From Spirochaetaceae bacterium (GTDB lineage: Bacteria > Spirochaetota > Spirochaetia > DSM-27196 > PWMO01): a stretch of DNA of 53,427 nt. The notes beneath the pieces are model-generated. The model saw nothing but the letters and a program-made list of their open reading frames with translations. It was not told the origin of the DNA and did not search any database. The translations under genes were made by a program, and so were the position numbers. Positions 5,208 through 34,409 of this stretch are shown here, one piece after another; positions within the stretch are counted from its first letter, which is position 1; every line of letters begins with the position of its first letter. Location: the NCBI GenBank assembly GCA_007693485.1, contig REDM01000174.1, positions 1-53,427 of the forward strand. The letters are read 5' to 3'.

Positions 5208-5977
5208 AGAGCTCACCGCGTTTCACCAGACTGCTGTGGGTGGTACTCCTGTTGGCCGTCTGGGAAATCACGCGACGGCTCAGTTCCGCAAGCGTTCTGG
5301 CCTTTCCCTCCGTTGCAATGGTGGCCGGCCGTCTCGTGGAGCTTCTCGCCACCGGGTTGCTCATGCGACAGGTGGCGGTATCTCTGGGCCTGATTTCAGG
5401 CGGGCTCGTCCTCGCCGCCCTGCCCGCCGGAGTTCTGGTTCTTGTGTCGTCGCGCGTTCGGTGGGTCGACTCTCTGCTGGAGACCATGGTGACGCTCTTT
5501 CACCCCCTGCCGGGAATTGCCCTCCTCCCGGTGATCATTCTGTGGTTTGGGATTGGTGTTGAAGCGGTAATGGTGGTGATCGTGCATTCGGTATTCTGGC
5601 CGCTCATCACCAACCTTCGAGCCGGACGGGAAGCGATGCCGGCCGTCTATCGACGGGTTGCCGAAAACCTCGGGATGAGTGCCGCGGACAGCTTTTGCCG
5701 GATCACCCTGCCCGCCGTGACGCCCTATCTGATTTCTGCGCTGCGGATCTGCTGGGCGCGAAGCTGGCGCGCGTTGATCAGCGCCGAAATGGTCTTTGGT
5801 GCGGTGGTTGCCGGCGGTGGACTCGGCTGGTTTCTGCACAGCCGACGGGTCTTCATGGACACGACCGGGCTGTTTGTCGGCCTGGTGGTGATCATGGCGG
5901 TGGGCGTTTTCGTGGAAGACGGCGTTTTCCGGTTTGTGGAGTCGCGAACGGTACGCCGCTGGGGAATGAATCCGTGA
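5204..5977 (+). CDS. ABC transporter permease (SsuC/TauC/NMT1 type)
   Basis: The product has 257 residues with about six transmembrane segments. The start is GTG in a GTGA overlap with the binding-protein gene. The BPD_transp_1 cytoplasmic coupling loop is seen as RRVAENLGMSAADSFCRITLPAVTPYLISAL, close to the EAA consensus, where it docks on the ATPase. FPSVAMVAGRLVELL near the N-terminus is also typical of SsuC/TauC permeases. It forms the channel for the importer made with its two neighbours, probably as a homodimer. Confidence 0.88.
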   Translation: MKSSPRFTRLLWVVLLLAVWEITRRLSSASVLAFPSVAMVAGRLVELLATGLLMRQVAVSLGLISGGLVLAALPAGVLVLVSSRVRWVDSLLETMVTLFHPLPGIALLPVIILWFGIGVEAVMVVIVHSVFWPLITNLRAGREAMPAVYRRVAENLGMSAADSFCRITLPAVTPYLISALRICWARSWRALISAEMVFGAVVAGGGLGWFLHSRRVFMDTTGLFVGLVVIMAVGVFVEDGVFRFVESRTVRRWGMNP

Positions 5978-24006: not shown

Positions 24007-25749
24007 TCAGAACAGGCCGCGGATCAGACCGCTTTCGGTATCAACGTCCACGCTCATGAATGCAGGCTTTGCCGGGAGCCCCGGCATGATGCGAACGGAA
24101 CCCGACAGCGGATAGAGAAACCCGGCGCCCACCGCGGCGCGCACCTCGGGCACGGGAAAGGTGAATCCTCGTGGTGCATTCCGCAGCGCCGGATCGTGGC
24201 TGAGGGAAAGTGGCGTCTTGGCCATGCAGATGGGAAAGGAACCCCACCCCAGCTCAGTGAAGCGATCGATTGCCTCCTCGGCGACCGCTCCGTACTCGAC
24301 CCGCGCGGCTCCGTAGATCCCCGTGGCAAGCAGCTCGATCTTATCGCGAATTGGCATTTCGGAGGGATAGAGCAATTCCGGTTTACTCGGACTTTCGCAC
24401 GCCGTCGCGACCGCCTCTGCCAGGGCCTCTGCCCCGGCTCCGCCGTCGGTAAAGTGGGTACACACCACGGCGTCCACAGCGCCTGCCTCCACCGCTGCCG
24501 CTCGCACCATCTCCAGCTCGGCGGCGGTGTCGGAAGGAAACGCGTTTACCGCAACCACTACGGGAACGCCAAATCGCCGCGAAATCGCCAGATGAGCGCG
24601 AAGGTTGGCAAGACCCTCCTCCACAAGGTCGAGCCGCTCGGTAGAATAGGCCGCATCGGGTTTCACTCCCGCCCTCAAAGCGGGGCCACCGCCGTGCGAC
24701 TTCACCGCCCGTACCGTCACCACCATCACCACCGCGTGGGGGCGCAGACCGCTGGCTCGGCACTTTATGTCAAAGAACTTCTCGAGCCCCATGTCGGACC
24801 CAAATCCGCTTTCCGTAACCAGGAAACCGCCCAGTCGTGACGCCACGAGGTCGGCCATGATGGAAGAGTTTCCGTGGGCGATGTTGGCAAACGGTCCGGC
24901 GTGGACAAATGCGGGCTGCCCTTCCAGGGTCTGGAGCAGATTGGGCGACAATGCGTCGCGCATCAGAGCGGTTGCGGCACCGGCTACCTCCAGGTCGTCG
25001 CAGCTGATGGGTTTCCCCGTCCGATCAAACGCCACTACGGTTCTCCCGATTCGCGCTCGCATGTCGCCGAGGTCGGTCGAGAGTGCAAGAATAGCCATCA
25101 ACTCACTGGCGACGGCGATGTCAAAGCCGCTCTGTCGCATGGGACCGTCACCGGTGTCACCAAGTCCTGTGACGATGGAGCGAAGCGCCCGGTCGCTGAC
25201 ATCCAGCACCCGCTTCCAGCTGACCTGATAGGGGTCGATGTTGAGTCGTCTCATACCTCTTTTTTCGAAGTATGCGTCCGACCAGCGGCCCTCGTGGTAG
25301 ATCCGGGCATCGACCGCCGCCGCGATCAGGTTGTGTGCAATCGAGACCGCATGGGTATCGCCGGTGAGATGCAAATTGAATCGTTCCATGGGGACGACCT
25401 GACTGTACCCACCACCGGCGGCACCCCCTTTTATACCGAAGGTCGGCCCCAACGAGGGTTGGCGGATTGCGCACGCTGCCCGTTTCCCGATTCTGCCAAG
25501 ACCCTGCGTCAGTCCGACTGTAGTGGTTGTCTTCCCTTCGCCAAAGGGCGTGGGCGTAATGCCCGTGACGGCAACGTAGCGAAAATCCTCTGCAACGCTG
25601 GTGAGGCGCCGAAGGATTCCCAGGTCGATCTTGGCGACATCACGACCGTAGGGAACAAGTTCCTCGTCGCGGACTCCTATTTCCGCGGCAATCTCCTGAA
25701 TCGGGCGCAGTGTTGCCCCTTGCGCGATTTCAATATCCTGCGGAATCAT
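24007..25749 (-). CDS. fhs: Formate-tetrahydrofolate ligase
   Basis: The product has 580 residues, slightly longer than the usual 556. The ATP loop is ITPTPFGEGKTTTTVGL (about 65-81), GIKGGAAGGGYSQVVPMERFNLHLTGDTHA is the highly conserved folate/ATP region, and FANIAHGNSS with the later GGGPALRAG also fit. It makes 10-formyl-THF from formate, THF and ATP, for purine synthesis, fMet-tRNA or serine metabolism. No other Wood-Ljungdahl gene is present in the window. GAGAGGAGG lies just before the ATG. A promoter of its own is seen. Confidence 0.95.
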   Translation of the reverse strand: MIPQDIEIAQGATLRPIQEIAAEIGVRDEELVPYGRDVAKIDLGILRRLTSVAEDFRYVAVTGITPTPFGEGKTTTTVGLTQGLGRIGKRAACAIRQPSLGPTFGIKGGAAGGGYSQVVPMERFNLHLTGDTHAVSIAHNLIAAAVDARIYHEGRWSDAYFEKRGMRRLNIDPYQVSWKRVLDVSDRALRSIVTGLGDTGDGPMRQSGFDIAVASELMAILALSTDLGDMRARIGRTVVAFDRTGKPISCDDLEVAGAATALMRDALSPNLLQTLEGQPAFVHAGPFANIAHGNSSIMADLVASRLGGFLVTESGFGSDMGLEKFFDIKCRASGLRPHAVVMVVTVRAVKSHGGGPALRAGVKPDAAYSTERLDLVEEGLANLRAHLAISRRFGVPVVVAVNAFPSDTAAELEMVRAAAVEAGAVDAVVCTHFTDGGAGAEALAEAVATACESPSKPELLYPSEMPIRDKIELLATGIYGAARVEYGAVAEEAIDRFTELGWGSFPICMAKTPLSLSHDPALRNAPRGFTFPVPEVRAAVGAGFLYPLSGSVRIMPGLPAKPAFMSVDVDTESGLIRGLF

Positions 25750-25849: not shown

Positions 25850-27835
25850 TTATGAGGACCGGACGGACCGCAATTCGGTGAGCATTTCCGCCATCTCATC
25901 CCGGTCGGCGCCGTGGAGGCGGCGGTACACTCCTCCGAAGGTCTCCGCGAGGCTACGCATTTGCTCGCTGCCGCGTCGAGTTCCCGTGGTGTCTACAAAA
26001 AGTGGGTGGATTCCAAGACGGGAGGTGCGGTCGGCAACCGTTTCGATCTGCTCCTGCCGGTTTTGGGGAGAAACGTTTCCTTCACCGTCGGAGAAGACCA
26101 TCACTTCGATGGGCTCGCCGGGGTCACGGCTTCGGGTGGTTTCGACGAGGTTCAGAGCCGCGGAGAGACCTGCGGCGAGCGGCGTTGCCCCACCAAGCTC
26201 CACCGATTCTACGGCACGTCGAGCACGGATAACGGCACTCGTGGGCTCAAGGGCAACGCGCGCGTGCTGATCCGAGAACGTCACCAGGGCGACCCGGTCC
26301 CGGCGGCGTTCCGCCGACGCCAGGAGTGCAAAGATCGCGATCCGCGCCACCTGCAGCTGATTCCCTTCTGTCATTGAGTCCGAAGCGTCCAGCACAAAAA
26401 TGACCGTATGGCGATCGCGCCGCCGGCGGATCTTGCCGCGGAGGTGGTACCGATCGGTGATTCGCGACGATCCGTCGATGGCCGCGGCACGCAAGGTGGC
26501 GTCAACGGCGATGTCGGTGGGATGCGAATCGGGCCGTGCGAATACGTAGCGTCCACGGGGTCCCGTTGCACGACGGGCGCTCCCGCGTCGGCGGCGCAGC
26601 CGAAGAATAATGCCGGAAATCGCCTGTTCTACGGTTCGGCGGATCTGGGGATCGTCATTGTCGGAGAGCTTTTTTTTTTTGAGAATCGGAAACAGGATGC
26701 TCCCCGCGGCCGCTCCGCCGGGGATCTGCATAGCCTCGAGCGCCTCTTCGGAGAAATCGTCATCGGTAGCTCGCCGTTCACCCGGAATGATGGTCTCGTC
26801 GGCTTCGCGCAGATCAACACCGCGCAGGCGATCGATCAGCTGTTCGATCTCGGCGGCGGCTTCTTCGGGCGATCTCAGGAGGCGCCCCTCGAACCGGTGC
26901 GGGAGCACGAAGCGAGCAGCCTCGTACAGGTGATCTGCGGCAACCGAGGGCTGTTCCAGAAGTGCCGCAAAGGCACGAGCACATTTCACCAATGCAAGAT
27001 CAGCCCGATGTCCGATTACCCCCGCGCCCGAGGAGATCTCCACCGCAAGCCGGAGCATCTCCTCTGGTACGATAATGCCGTTGATGCGGCTTCGTGCGTC
27101 GACAATTGTCGATCGAATTCGGGCCTCTTCCTCCCGCCAGTTCAGACGAAAACCCTCCGGGTTCGCCTCGTAGGCAGCCCGACGACGAATCACCTCCATG
27201 CGTTCGGCGGGTTCTCGAAGGCCGGTTACCGTGACGCAGAGGCCAAAGCGGTCGAGAAACTGCGGGCGAAGCTCTCCCTCTTCGGGGTTCATGGTTCCCA
27301 GCAGAATGAACCGGGCGGGATGGCGAAGCGAGATTCCCTCCCGCTCCACGGTGTTCACGCCGGATGCGGCGGAGTCCAACAGCAGATCGACCAGGTGGTC
27401 TTCCAGCAGGTTGACCTCATCGACGTAGAGAATTCCGCGATTTGCCGCCGCAAGCAGACCCGCATCGAATTTCCGCACTCCCGACGAGAGTGCAGCTTCA
27501 ACGTCGAGAGTACCCACGAGGCGATCTTCGGTTGCGCCCAGTGGGAGCTCAACCAGCGGGACCGGGATCTCGGTTGCGGTGGGCTGAGCGGCACCCACGC
27601 ACTCGGGGCAGAGACCGGCGGGAGCGTCCGGCGAACAGTGGTAGGGGCATCCCCGCGCAACGACCAGCGCGGGAAGCAGTTCGCGAAAGGCACGGACGAT
27701 GGTCGATTTTGCGGTACCCTTTTCGCCGCGAATGAGAACACCGCCGATCGATGGATCGACCGACGCAGCCAGGAGCGCGGATTTCATTGCGTGCTGACCA
27801 ACAACGGCCGAAAAGGGAAAGGTTGCGTGGTTCAC
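25850..27835 (-). CDS. Fused ChlI-ChlD type metal chelatase AAA+/VWA protein, candidate dual-product gene
   Basis: The product has 661 residues in the zero frame. AAA+ part: Walker A GEKGTAKST (about 37-45), a cysteine insertion CPYHCSP...LCPEC (about 63-80) and Walker B ILYVDEVNLL. An acidic linker leads to four lysines (386-389) encoded by an 11-A run. The VWA part carries the MIDAS motif VLDASDSM with later Thr and Asp (GGATPLAAGLS, VFSDGEGN). The family drives magnesium insertion by ChlH/BchH or cobalt insertion by CobN. With no bacteriochlorophyll genes seen and a B12-dependent RNR close by, cobalt is the better guess. The GTG start has no clear Shine-Dalgarno and lies 10 bases after the small secreted-protein gene. 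Confidence 0.87.
   Translation of the reverse strand: MNHATFPFSAVVGQHAMKSALLAASVDPSIGGVLIRGEKGTAKSTIVRAFRELLPALVVARGCPYHCSPDAPAGLCPECVGAAQPTATEIPVPLVELPLGATEDRLVGTLDVEAALSSGVRKFDAGLLAAANRGILYVDEVNLLEDHLVDLLLDSAASGVNTVEREGISLRHPARFILLGTMNPEEGELRPQFLDRFGLCVTVTGLREPAERMEVIRRRAAYEANPEGFRLNWREEEARIRSTIVDARSRINGIIVPEEMLRLAVEISSGAGVIGHRADLALVKCARAFAALLEQPSVAADHLYEAARFVLPHRFEGRLLRSPEEAAAEIEQLIDRLRGVDLREADETIIPGERRATDDDFSEEALEAMQIPGGAAAGSILFPILKKKKLSDNDDPQIRRTVEQAISGIILRLRRRRGSARRATGPRGRYVFARPDSHPTDIAVDATLRAAAIDGSSRITDRYHLRGKIRRRRDRHTVIFVLDASDSMTEGNQLQVARIAIFALLASAERRRDRVALVTFSDQHARVALEPTSAVIRARRAVESVELGGATPLAAGLSAALNLVETTRSRDPGEPIEVMVFSDGEGNVSPQNRQEQIETVADRTSRLGIHPLFVDTTGTRRGSEQMRSLAETFGGVYRRLHGADRDEMAEMLTELRSVRSS
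26655..26680 (-). other. A11 slippery tract with early -1 stop in the chelatase gene
   Basis: The coding strand reads CTC, eleven A, then GCTC (A run at 26680-26670). In the zero frame this is KKKKLS. A -1 shift gives KKKKALRQ and then TGA at 26657-26655, ending a 393-residue ChlI-like protein just after the AAA+ domain. The same outcome follows from insertion of one A by transcriptional slippage. Confidence 0.6.
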
Positions 27836-27845
27836 GGTGACGGTC

Positions 27846-28262
27846 TTACTGGCGCACGACCAGGAGGTTGCTACCCCGATTCATCCGGATGTGGGTGACC
27901 TCGCGGTTACGTTCGGTCACCGTGAGGCTGGTGAGAAAGAGCACATCGGGGCTGATTGGGCGGACCGCGAAGAAGTTGTTCCCGGCCGGATTCTCCAGCA
28001 CAAAAAAACCCGCCTCCATCCGCCACGCAGAGAAGTTTACGCCCCGCGCCGTGACCACACCGTCTGCCTCAATCACCAGGACACCTTCGGAGGGAACCTC
28101 CACGTTTCCCTCGGTATGGTCTCTCATGGTGTAGTTTGACAGCTCGTCGACGCGGTAAACGGTCCACGTGCCAACCATGTTTGCTTCCTGACCGACCGCG
28201 GGACCGGCAACGGCCGCCATCATGCCTACGATCATCACTGTATACAACAACGCCTTGCGCAT
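27846..28262 (-). CDS. Small secreted protein of unknown function
   Basis: The product has 138 residues. A signal peptide (MRKALLYTVMIVGMMAAVAGPAVGQE) with cleavage near GQ-EA is clear, with no lipobox cysteine. The mature part is about 112 residues of beta-strand character, with MVGTWTVYRVDELSNY at its start like the GTW motif of lipocalin-like domains, and VFSAWRMEAGFFVLEN-type strands. I do not assign a family. GGAGGGCGC precedes the ATG. The chelatase gene starts 10 bases after its stop, so the two are co-transcribed, but no functional link is known. Confidence 0.75.
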   Translation of the reverse strand: MRKALLYTVMIVGMMAAVAGPAVGQEANMVGTWTVYRVDELSNYTMRDHTEGNVEVPSEGVLVIEADGVVTARGVNFSAWRMEAGFFVLENPAGNNFFAVRPISPDVLFLTSLTVTERNREVTHIRMNRGSNLLVVRQ

Positions 28263-28416
28263 GCGCCCTCCGATATCCGTACCGTACTCCTCTATACCCT
28301 ACTACAAAACGGAACGGATTGCACACCAAGGGTCCCATCGGTATGCTGAGAAACAAAAACCGGTTTGGCCGTCGTTCCCCTTCATCAGCCGACGGCCTGC
28401 ATCAAGAGAGCGCTTC

Positions 28417-29316
28417 GTGATTCGAAACAGACAGTTTGTCCGAACGGTGTTCATTGCCGCCTGTGCGGCCACCGTCGCCATTGCGGGTATCGGACTAATC
28501 CAGCATTCGATACACTCCGCCCAGATCACGTTGGACGCCCGCGCGCGGTTCCGTGAGAGCAGCCTGCTCTACGTAGGAACCGTGGCGCGACTCGCCGAGC
28601 AGTACCTGGTTCAGCCTGCGCGACATCCTCTTGAACTGATTGCCCTTGCGCGCAGCGCCACCGTGGTAGAAGGGTCGCGCGGTGCAACGATCAGCGGGTT
28701 CGGCAGCGCGCCGGGTCGCGAGATCGATACCGTCTGGGCCTCGAGCGAAGCCGGATTTCTGACAAACACCGGCGCTCTGCGCTATCAGCCGGGTCGAACC
28801 CGGGTGCAGGATGAGCTCTCGTCGCGTATTCCCGAACTGGTTCTGGAAATGAATCGCGCCGCCGACGAGGCAATGGTCGACCTGACTCCGCAGATCGAGA
28901 CGGTCACTCAGTCGATCCTCGACCTGCTCATTCGCACGCCTGCGGCAGAACAGGCGGAGCTTGCCGAAGCGGACGAAGTCTTTCGGGTGCTCTACCAGCG
29001 CGGCAGCGACCGGCTTGCCGTGGTTGCGCGCGCGTGGGCAGGGACCGAACCGGCTGAGATTGATCCCGTGCGACCACCCGGCGAGATCCTGGTGTTTCAT
29101 CCGGTGGCTACCATGGATCGAAACGGCGCGTCGTGGTATACCGGCATGGTGCGGTTTCGTCGGTCCACCGAGCCACTGATCGCGGACATTCAACAGAGAG
29201 AAGGCCAAATGACCCGGGGAATCGTTCGTTCGATGCTGTGGACAGCGGCCATAATCTGGGCGACCGCCGTTGCGGTCGTGGTGATTGCTCAGTTGCTGAA
29301 GAAGGAGATCGTGTGA
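28417..29316 (+). CDS. Two-TM protein with extracytoplasmic domain, unknown
   Basis: The product has 299 residues from a GTG at 28417 with AGAG upstream. One membrane helix lies near the N-terminus (FIAACAATVAIAGIGLIQ) and a second near the end (MLWTAAIIWATAVAVVVIAQLL), followed by a short basic tail (KKEIV). The 240 residues between should lie in the periplasm. This is the layout of a CACHE-type or four-helix sensor module, but no HAMP, kinase or GGDEF domain follows. Its stop overlaps the GTG start of the CysRS-like gene, so the two are translated together. I do not recognise a family. Confidence 0.72.
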   Translation: MIRNRQFVRTVFIAACAATVAIAGIGLIQHSIHSAQITLDARARFRESSLLYVGTVARLAEQYLVQPARHPLELIALARSATVVEGSRGATISGFGSAPGREIDTVWASSEAGFLTNTGALRYQPGRTRVQDELSSRIPELVLEMNRAADEAMVDLTPQIETVTQSILDLLIRTPAAEQAELAEADEVFRVLYQRGSDRLAVVARAWAGTEPAEIDPVRPPGEILVFHPVATMDRNGASWYTGMVRFRRSTEPLIADIQQREGQMTRGIVRSMLWTAAIIWATAVAVVVIAQLLKKEIV

Positions 29317-30581
29317 GTCATATTCAGCCCGACTGTCCCCTCATTCTGACGAACACCCTGACCCGCCGCCGCGAGGTGTTCACCCCGCGCGAGCCAGGTG
29401 TTGTACGCCTCTTCACCTGTGGCCCCTCGGTCTACCGCCGACCCCATCTTGGCAACTATCGCACCTTCCTCTACGAAGACGTGCTGCAACGCTACCTTAC
29501 CTATCGCGGGTACACCGTTCACCGGGTGATCGTGGCAACCGACGTCGAGGACAAGGCGATCGAAGAGGCGGCCGACCTCGGGCTCAGCGTCGGCGAACTT
29601 ACCGATCGAAACCTTGAGCGATTCCGGACGGAGTGCGACGCACTCGGGATCACCCTTCCGCAAACCATTGCCCGTGCGTCCACCAGCGTCGATGTAGCCG
29701 TACGGTTGATCGAGCAGCTTCTGGAAAACGGCATTGCCTACCGACACGACGGTGACGTCTTCTACGATCCCCTCAAATACTCGCGGTTTGGTGAAATTTT
29801 TGGCCTCGATATGAGTGATTGGCCAACGGACCATCGTCGATTTGCTCAGGACACCTACGAGGGGAACCGTTGGAACCGCGGCGACTTCATCCTCTGGCAC
29901 GGCAAGCGCGATGGGGACGCCGTCGCGTGGGAGAGCTCCATCGGTCCCGGCCGCCCGTCGTGGAACGTGCAGGACCCCGCGATGTGCGTGCAGCAGCTTG
30001 GATACGAAATCGATATTCACTGTGGCGGTATCGACAATATCTACCGCCACCACGACTACAACCGCGCCGTTATCGAGGGAATCACCGGCCGCGAGTTCTG
30101 CCACTACTGGCTGCACGGCGAGCACGTCATTGTGGACGGGGTAAAGATGTCCAAGTCCAAGGGAAACGTGCTCCATCTCGAAGAGATGTCGGAACGCGGG
30201 ATTACGCCCCGCGAGGTGCGTTTCCTGCTGATCTACGGTCACTACCGCGAGAAACTCAACGTTACCGACGAGCTGATCGACGATCGCGTGGCGCGCATCC
30301 GCGGGATACGGGGCGATGTGGATGCCCTTCTTGGTGGCGCGGCAGGATCCCGGCCGGACGCAGAGCGGGCGGAACGGCTGCTCGGCGAACTACCGCTGCT
30401 CTTTGAAACCGCCATGAACGACGATCTTCACGTGGGAAACGCCGTGGACTCGGTTTCCGCAGCTCTTTCGGAGCTGCGCACGGTTGCTCCCGCGAAGGGA
30501 CTCTCGGCATCGGATCGCCGCCGCCTCACCAACGCGCTCACGGCAATGGACACGGTGATCGGCGCCATCCTCCAGCGGTGA
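29313..30581 (+). CDS. cysS: Cysteinyl-tRNA synthetase-like protein with altered zinc site
   Basis: The product has 422 residues; ordinary bacterial CysRS has about 460. FTCGPSVYRRPHLGN (34-48) includes the first zinc cysteine (Cys36) and the HIGH-type motif; KMSKSKGN (278-285) is the second ATP motif. TDVEDKAIEEA also fits CysRS. Against this, the WHIEC zinc cysteine is replaced (WNVQDPAM, Asp221) and HHENE reads HHDYN, losing the glutamate ligand (Asn250). So two of the four ligands that let CysRS sense cysteine thiol are gone. It may be a true but divergent CysRS, or a paralogue with another amino acid or acceptor. The GTG start overlaps the stop of the two-TM gene. Confidence 0.8.
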   Translation: MSHIQPDCPLILTNTLTRRREVFTPREPGVVRLFTCGPSVYRRPHLGNYRTFLYEDVLQRYLTYRGYTVHRVIVATDVEDKAIEEAADLGLSVGELTDRNLERFRTECDALGITLPQTIARASTSVDVAVRLIEQLLENGIAYRHDGDVFYDPLKYSRFGEIFGLDMSDWPTDHRRFAQDTYEGNRWNRGDFILWHGKRDGDAVAWESSIGPGRPSWNVQDPAMCVQQLGYEIDIHCGGIDNIYRHHDYNRAVIEGITGREFCHYWLHGEHVIVDGVKMSKSKGNVLHLEEMSERGITPREVRFLLIYGHYREKLNVTDELIDDRVARIRGIRGDVDALLGGAAGSRPDAERAERLLGELPLLFETAMNDDLHVGNAVDSVSAALSELRTVAPAKGLSASDRRRLTNALTAMDTVIGAILQR

Positions 30582-30614: not shown

Positions 30615-32516
30615 TCAGTGCTGAAAGTCTTCGCGGGTCGGGATGTCGTGTTTGGTGATCGCGCAGAGGATCTGATCGGTCAGCGGAGATACCGCCGAGA
30701 TGCGGTTTGCCTGCTTCTCCACGGTCTTTTCAAAAATGTTCCGTACGAAGCGGCCGTTGCCGAACGCCTTGTCGCGCTTCTTGTAGAAGGTGGTCAGGAC
30801 ATTCAGCAACTCTCGGCGCGCGGGCGCGGTGAGGTTGAACGACGCGTTCGAGGCGAAGATATCGAAGATCCGGATCAGTTCTTCCGGTGTGTAATGGTCA
30901 AAATAGAAATACCGGCTGAAACGGCTCTGCAACCCGGGATTGGATGCGATGAAATCGTTCATCTCGTCGGGGTATCCCGCCACAATGACCACCAGTCGGT
31001 CTCGGTGGTCCTCCATTCGTTTCAGGAGCGTGTCGATCGCCTCCTGACCAAAGTCCTTGCCCGCGCCGCGGGGTGAGAGGGTGTACGCCTCATCGATAAA
31101 GAGCACCCCGTCGAGCGCCTCGTTGACCACCTCGTCCACCTGAATGGCGGTCTGCCCAACGTACCCGGCAACCAGGCCCGCGCGGTCGGTCTCGACCATG
31201 TGGCCCTTCTCCAGCAGCCCGAGACATTTGTACACCCGACCGAGGTAGCGCGCTATGGTAGTCTTTCCGGTTCCCGGCGGTCCGTAGAAGACCGCGTGCT
31301 TCGAAAACGGCGTCACCGGTAGCCCGCGGCGTTCGCGTTCGTTGTGCACCTTGATCACGTTGATGAAGGTGTTGATTTGCGCTTTCACCTTCGTCATTCC
31401 GATGAGGGTATTGATTTTCTCCATCACCTCGTCGAGCGTCTCTTCCTGCTGCTGCTCGGCGATGCGCACGGTTTTTCGGGCGACCTTCTTCTCTTCCGAT
31501 GCGGACACCTGTTCCTGGTCGCCGTAGATGAGAGTACGGATGGCTGCGAGCTTCTGCGGTGCGTCTCCCTTGGTCGTGCCGTCGGCTTTGATCACGCATT
31601 GGGCGTACGCAAAGAAGGAGGCCGCCATCTTGTCAAAATGCGAACTGTCCTGCCGTCGGTCGTAGAGGTGCAGGTACTGCAGCGACTTCAGCGACGAAAC
31701 GGTCACTCCGCGAACCTTCTGGATCTCATTGTGGAAAATATGCCAGTGAGTCAGGATCTGGCGCCGATGGTGCAACGGAAGCGAGTCGTAGCGAAACACG
31801 TCGAGCACCAGTTCGCGATCAGGGATCAAACGCTGGCGCAGGTACATGAAGACCATCGAAATGAACAGCTTGGTCTCTTCGGGTGGATGCTCCGCCTTTC
31901 CCACACAACAGTAGGTTACGTACATCAGGTCATCGATCATCTGCTGCAGAAACGCCGGCTCGTTGTTGAACTGCTTGTATTGATTCACCGCCCGGATAAT
32001 CTTGCGTGCCTCGTTATGCAGAAAATTCAGGTTGGCGAGCTTCTCTTCGCTCGAAAGCTGCCGATCGGTGGACTCGTTGGCGATACCCTCGTCCTCGACA
32101 ACGATCTCGTCCCCAACGCGAGACTTCAAGTGGTCGAGAAAAGTGCGCGTCAGGGTACTGCGCTTGGTAGAAGTGAGTACCCCGGTACCCGCGGAGTGTT
32201 GGAGGGTGATCTTGACCGAGCTGTCGGATCGGCGGGCGTCTACCTGGAGCAGATCGTCGAAAGAGATTGTCTCTGCGGGTGTGGTGGATTTACCGTTGAG
32301 CAGAAAGAGAATCCGGCGGTTGGTGATGCAGAGAATACCGGGTGCTCCCGACCCCGATGAGACCACCGACCCACCGCGATAGAACCCTTCGAGCACGTCG
32401 TCGACTTCTTCGTCCTCATCGAGCACACGATCAAAGGTGGTGAGGATGTTCTTCTTGAACGACACGTGAAGCCAGTTGGCAATTCGTCCCAACTGAGATT
32501 CGAGCTCACTCCGCAC
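30615..32516 (-). CDS. CbxX/EccA-type AAA+ ATPase with N-terminal PH-like domain
   Basis: The product has 633 residues. Residues 45-130 look like a bacterial PH-like domain (GAPGILCITNRRILFLLNG). Residues 160-335 are helical, with a TerB-like stretch (FFAYAQCVIKADGTTKGDAPQKL). The C-terminal AAA+ domain has Walker A GPPGTGKT (412-419), the CbxX-type pore loop region GLVAGYVGQT, Walker B VLFIDEA (471-477) and the conserved LSPRGAGKDFGQEAIDTLLKRMED. CbxX/CfxQ ATPases remodel rubisco or act in ESX secretion and spore assembly; no rubisco gene is present. The start is GTG with GGAGGGG ahead. It follows the MinD-like gene by 80 bases on the same strand. Confidence 0.83.
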   Translation of the reverse strand: MRSELESQLGRIANWLHVSFKKNILTTFDRVLDEDEEVDDVLEGFYRGGSVVSSGSGAPGILCITNRRILFLLNGKSTTPAETISFDDLLQVDARRSDSSVKITLQHSAGTGVLTSTKRSTLTRTFLDHLKSRVGDEIVVEDEGIANESTDRQLSSEEKLANLNFLHNEARKIIRAVNQYKQFNNEPAFLQQMIDDLMYVTYCCVGKAEHPPEETKLFISMVFMYLRQRLIPDRELVLDVFRYDSLPLHHRRQILTHWHIFHNEIQKVRGVTVSSLKSLQYLHLYDRRQDSSHFDKMAASFFAYAQCVIKADGTTKGDAPQKLAAIRTLIYGDQEQVSASEEKKVARKTVRIAEQQQEETLDEVMEKINTLIGMTKVKAQINTFINVIKVHNERERRGLPVTPFSKHAVFYGPPGTGKTTIARYLGRVYKCLGLLEKGHMVETDRAGLVAGYVGQTAIQVDEVVNEALDGVLFIDEAYTLSPRGAGKDFGQEAIDTLLKRMEDHRDRLVVIVAGYPDEMNDFIASNPGLQSRFSRYFYFDHYTPEELIRIFDIFASNASFNLTAPARRELLNVLTTFYKKRDKAFGNGRFVRNIFEKTVEKQANRISAVSPLTDQILCAITKHDIPTREDFQH

Positions 32517-34293: not shown

Positions 34294-34409
34294 CAGAGAG
34301 AATCAGGGGAAAAAACGGCAGTCGATCAAAAAAAAACGCAGTATATTTTTCATAACCACCGCACAAGAGAACGGGTTTCACCGGGAAGGAGAGATGGAGG
34401 AATTTTTTT

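Follow-up and report, generated by a model that had tools for sequence, protein, structure and literature searches.

The window, by which we mean the whole 53,427 nt stretch of spirochaetal DNA that was analysed, harbors a chelatase-like gene of the fs-chlD type on the minus strand (Table 1). The gene codes for an N-terminal ChlI-like AAA+ half, a linker, and a C-terminal VWA half. The Pfam domains Mg_chelatase, AAA_lid_2, and VWA were found in the predicted protein, and the nearest solved structures were the magnesium chelatase subunits ChlI/BchI and BchD. The best match among the NCBIfam models was TIGR02442 ("putative cobaltochelatase") with 621.6 bits, which is below the cut-off of 779, while TIGR02030 and TIGR02031 scored 389 and 341 bits, respectively.

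The linker between the two halves contains a run of 11 A, which opens on a codon boundary (ATT CTC AAA AAA AAA AAG CTC) and is the longest homopolymer of the window, the DNA of which has 61% GC. A first-pass annotation of this DNA had already described the run, the fused form in frame 0 as assembled, and the -1 frame that reads KKKKALRQ up to a TGA, and all of this was found as described. Reading in the +1/-2 frame leads to a product of 401 aa that ends in SSPTMTIPRSAEP. The next longest homopolymer, an A9, is located either in a spacer or close to the 5' end of an ORF on the minus strand, and local alignment to the homologous locus of the nearest relative (L046) showed indels around it.

Table 1. 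Features of the chelatase-like gene and of its surroundings in the window.
Feature	Position	Strand	Remarks
fs-chlD-type gene	25850..27835	-	GTG start; 661 aa in frame 0 as assembled, from translation
A11 slippery run	26670..26680	-	A9/A10 at the homologous place in 36/38 loci
TGA closing the -1 frame as assembled	26655..26657	-	393-aa product ...KKKKALRQ
TAG closing the +1/-2 frame	26629..26631	-	401-aa product ...KKKSSPTMTIPRSAEP; an A10 allele, as in L046, would give this as its default short product
GGGGAG, 19 nt 5' of the A run	26700..26705 (about)	-	encodes a conserved Ala-Gly-Ser stretch
Formate-tetrahydrofolate ligase gene	24007-25749	-	
Gene for small protein	27846-28262	-	138 aa
Cysteinyl-tRNA-synthetase-like gene	29133-30581	+	482 aa
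Gene for CbbX/SpoVK-like AAA+ protein	30615-32516	-	N-terminal PH-like domain
Second long homopolymer, A9	34328-34336		

No conserved neighborhood that would point to a client of the gene product was found, and the neighbors differed between families. Within the genus the gene is accompanied by a small protein and HtpX, while H+-pyrophosphatase, tRNA-editing, AzlC, ArsR/ArsP, and other genes were found elsewhere. The gene for the small protein lies directly upstream of the chelatase-like gene and in the same direction. The protein is conserved across the genus (L044, L045, L046, L047, L058) and has no Pfam or NCBIfam match. In the window, the formate-tetrahydrofolate ligase gene sits between the chelatase-like gene and htpX, while an htpX-like gene directly follows the chelatase-like gene in three relatives from the same genus (L044, L045, and L047). 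The position of the ligase in the window represents a lineage-specific insertion or rearrangement. The CbbX/SpoVK-like AAA+ protein is also a conserved neighbor in the genus. The cysteinyl-tRNA-synthetase-like protein scored below the cut-offs for cysS and mshC and is possibly a divergent paralogue.

We compared the run among 38 run-bearing loci, which were collected by searches of the order of the window, then of the phylum, and by one scan of named genome contigs. The homologue searches selected by protein similarity and not by the presence of a run. The loci stem from Spirochaetota, Thermodesulfobacteriota, Myxococcota, and Verrucomicrobiota. The run, its conservation, and the frame layout could be read directly from the sequences: all 38 loci had an unbroken stretch of 9 to 13 A at the same place of the linker (24 with A9, 12 with A10, the A11 of the window, and one A13 in L077 of the Desulfobacterales). 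The phase of the run relative to the codons was 0, 1, or 2, and the encoded residues varied, while the A run stayed unbroken. The persistence of the nucleotide run in spite of its varying phase points to selection on the nucleotides. As judged from this comparison, the A run at this linker is not there by chance, and the conserved run is to be regarded as functional. Single-frame homologues were also found (L055, L066, L067, L068), all of them linked to CobN and accompanied by a separate chlI; chlD is single-frame in genomes where CobN adjoins separate chlI and chlD genes.

The VWA half was in the -1 frame in 35 of the 38 loci, in frame in two (the A11 of the window and the A13 of L077), and in the +1 frame in L048. 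The latter gene (genome G018) is interrupted by in-frame stops and was regarded as damaged or mis-assembled, which accounts for its +1 label. In the 35 loci with -1 layout the frame-0 stop followed 2-21 codons after the run (median 8). In L077 the run is located at positions 5876-5888, and its genome (G443) does have CobN. The first-pass annotation had taken the long form as the zero-frame product and the short form as the product of a shift. The conserved order is the reverse, with the short form in frame 0 and the long form in the -1 frame. Likewise, the expected short product ending in ALRQ is not the one conserved in the lineage, where the short C-terminus is SSPTMTIPRSAEP and the product has 401 aa. 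The ALRQ peptide is therefore not the best target for mass spectrometry.

The frame-0 layout of the window departs from the conserved one, and the allele could therefore be an assembly error; the exact run length of 11 is the weak point of the observation. All four homologues from the same genus have A10 with the VWA half in the -1 frame, among them the nearest relative L046, which shows 94-97% aa identity. In all four, the long product would be reached by a -1 shift, which is not so in the window as assembled. In a tree, the gene of the window nests among A10 genes, so that A11 is either derived or an assembly error. Over about 8.5 kb (about 25.8 to 34.3 kb of the window) the extra A was the only net frame-changing coding difference to L046. 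We consider the chance nearly even that A11 is a sequencing or assembly error for A10 and that the true gene has the common arrangement, in which two ORFs overlap and the long form lies in the -1 frame. On the other hand, no further homopolymer frame error was seen over the same stretch, an A10 readily gains an A by replication slippage, and the distant homologue with A13 is likewise in frame. If A11 is real, both products would still arise by slippage, with the long form now in frame, comparable to dnaX of Thermus. The gene of the window is assigned to the fs-chlD genes by descent, and its deviation from their layout amounts to one A, possibly an assembly error.

The sequence data suggest that one cistron would give rise to two proteins by slippage at the conserved A9-A11 run. 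The short product would be ChlI-like and consist of the AAA+ part alone (about 390-400 aa), and the long product would be ChlD-like and comprise both the AAA+ and the VWA half (about 660 aa). In the lineage, the short protein would be made by default, and the long one would require a -1 shift or an mRNA with one A added. In this assembly, the extra A would put the long form in frame and slippage would produce the short form, unless the A is an error. Thus, the earlier proposal of two subunits from one gene by a -1 shift holds in that a short AAA+ and a long AAA+/VWA protein are very likely made by slippage, but not in its frame order, which is reversed in the relatives.

It is highly improbable that the VWA half is instead initiated separately by translational coupling without any shift: the two ORFs of the relatives overlap and some start codon is available in 11 of 35 loci, either before the run or at most 60 nt after it, but 24 of the 35 lack a start codon between the opening of ORF2 and 60 nt beyond the run and the -1 frame (ORF2) opens only inside the run in 15 of 35, which makes internal initiation unlikely, and the window and L077 have single ORFs.

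With regard to the mechanism of the shift, we looked for the elements of a dnaX-type stimulated -1 site, a 3' structure and a 5' Shine-Dalgarno-like element, and found neither a structure nor a conserved element. No stable RNA structure was detected 3' of the run at 21 loci, where folding was near the level of shuffled sequences (z about -1.6 to +1.6 for three lengths of the folded segment). The GGGGAG that the first-pass annotation had pointed out is present at the indicated distance, but it was rejected as an internal Shine-Dalgarno sequence: what is conserved here is the encoded Ala-Gly-Ser stretch, not a motif of the Shine-Dalgarno type.

None of the 38 loci had a run of fewer than 9 nt, while 7 nt would suffice for a ribosomal A_AAA_AAG/A site. 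Efficient slippage of bacterial RNA polymerase occurs at runs of 9 A/T, and the hybrid of this enzyme has a length of 9-10 bp (PMC5009743; PMC1088944). A minimum run of nine, together with the lack of a 3' structure or a conserved Shine-Dalgarno element, leans toward transcriptional slippage, by which mRNAs with 9, 10, 11, or more A would be formed and normal translation would give both proteins. The longest runs, A11 and A13, belong to the two in-frame alleles, which fits this mechanism and resembles the layout of Thermus dnaX. Nevertheless, the -1 relation is kept in 35 of the 38 loci, which argues that direction and ratio matter, and the slip heptamer A_AAA_AAA/G is likewise present in every gene of the set. 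When magnesium-chelatase fs-genes were expressed in E. coli, the shift followed the length of the A run (63% for A11, 40% for A9), but a member with A7 was still shifted to 10% (PMC3711429). All in all, we see an even chance that slippage is transcriptional.

Ribosomal -1 programmed frameshifting on the tandem A_AAA_AAA/G is the published reading for the magnesium chelatase and other chlD fs-genes (PMC3711429, PMC9227772), and the presence of the heptamer and the conserved -1 direction agree with it. Evidence against it is that the run always has 9 nt or more, longer than the heptamer requires, and that these loci gave no signal of a 3' structure and no conserved Shine-Dalgarno element. We regard ribosomal frameshifting as a real possibility, at a somewhat less than even chance. 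Between the two mechanisms, the comparison of the loci slightly favors RNA polymerase slippage.

We also searched for the partner subunits of a chelatase. CobN/ChlH (PF02514) was absent from the organism's own genome, with positive controls, and from 59 of the 60 relatives searched alongside it. In the one exceptional genome (G031), CobN shares its contig with a separate chlI and a single-frame chlD. The fs-chlD genomes of the order, like the own genome, gave no hit for CobN/ChlH. By a hand tally, the large subunit was lacking in 36 of the 38 genomes with a run-type gene, and the two genomes possessing it were G443 (L077) and G456 (L096). CbiC, CbiG, and cobalamin synthase (CobS) were not found in the own genome either, nor was a separate chlI, in line with the earlier note. 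The own genome is a 92%-complete draft, so that an absent gene could be missed, and relatives that are up to 97-100% complete agree with it. The absence of CobN/ChlH and of the tested corrin genes, like the frame layout, is a direct observation.

A candidate for a second copy or a chlI was seen on contig C229 of the same assembly (G000; L058, 1-3117). This contig is syntenic with positions 27398-30514 of the window, with a DNA identity of 84%, and shares 89.6% identity with the relative G005. It breaks off within the gene and most likely stems from a strain variant or a contaminant.

The first-pass annotation had assigned the gene to cobalt insertion. TIGR02442 is indeed the best NCBIfam model, related frameshifted chlD genes serve a CobN chelatase in other taxa (PMC9227772), and a class II RNR is encoded in the genome. 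Nevertheless, the score for TIGR02442 is under the cut-off, cobN and the tested corrin genes are missing as described above, and a cob(I)alamin adenosyltransferase is present, suggesting salvage. Since the corrin genes are absent and the adenosyltransferase is present, the class II RNR probably uses an imported corrinoid. With neither a partner subunit nor genes for the corrin ring, the gene is probably not a cobalt chelatase, and we give hardly any weight to the view that an aerobic cobaltochelatase obtains both of its small subunits from it. The PF02514 search did not reveal a ChlH/BchH large subunit of a magnesium chelatase either.

We infer that both proteins are made and that they join in one complex. 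This would probably be a mixed AAA+ ring serving to remodel a client other than CobN/ChlH or to supply such a client with metal, in analogy to ChlI/ChlD rings and to AAA+/VWA pairs such as NorQD. Taken as a whole, a slippage-made pair of the ChlI/ChlD type that acts on such a client is the best explanation of the sequence data, and we consider it likely.

Frameshifted chlD genes of bacteria and archaea are reported by Antonov (2013, 2020) and by Kuznetsov et al. (2022; PMC9227772). The gene of the window shares with the fs-chlD genes the single gene with an AAA+ half followed by a VWA half, the A run in the linker, the short and long product, and the lack of a separate chlI. Published frameshifted chlD genes yield two chelatase subunits (PMC3711429, PMC9227772). 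They need a -1 shift for the long form, in contrast to the long form in frame 0 with A11 in the window, and the loci studied here also differ from them in that no 3' structure was detected. Spirochaeta thermophila and Brevefilum fermentans have fs-chlD without CobN/ChlH and without a B12 or chlorophyll pathway (PMC9227772). The gene of the window resembles these orphan "stage 1" genes in lacking CobN/ChlH but comes from a different lineage, and our data extend the A9/A10 rule and the missing large subunit to 36 of 38 genomes, with Desulfuromonadales and Verrucomicrobia among them.

dnaX of Thermus thermophilus shares with the gene of the window a long product in frame 0, an A run, stop codons close by in each of the two other frames, and slippage leading to the short form. 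It has A9 and codes for an unrelated protein, and transcriptional slippage was demonstrated experimentally for dnaX, while for the gene of the window we infer it. AAA+/VWA pairs of the MoxR type, such as NorQD, also act on a protein client in metal insertion without CobN/ChlH (PMC13036017). NorQD belongs to the MoxR family and has two genes and a known client, whereas the window has one gene of the ChlI family.

New findings of this study are that the A9/A10 rule extends across 38 loci, that 36 of 38 genomes lack the large subunit, that no stimulatory structure could be detected, and that two in-frame alleles with longer runs occur naturally. As a more speculative and rather unlikely extension, these genes may represent a widespread chelatase-derived AAA+/VWA machine that works without CobN/ChlH and is made by RNA polymerase slippage, with a run tuned to the 9-10 bp hybrid and the default subunit inverted here by one base. 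With the A9/A10 rule, the lack of a stimulatory structure, and the natural in-frame A11 and A13 alleles, slippage by the ribosome and slippage by RNA polymerase can be tested directly against each other. The results correct the tempting annotation as "putative cobaltochelatase" in genomes that make no corrin. Strong selection acts on the frameshift layout even without the large subunit, and since the layout is selected where this subunit is absent, the ChlI/ChlD-like pair must do a job other than chelating into CobN/ChlH.
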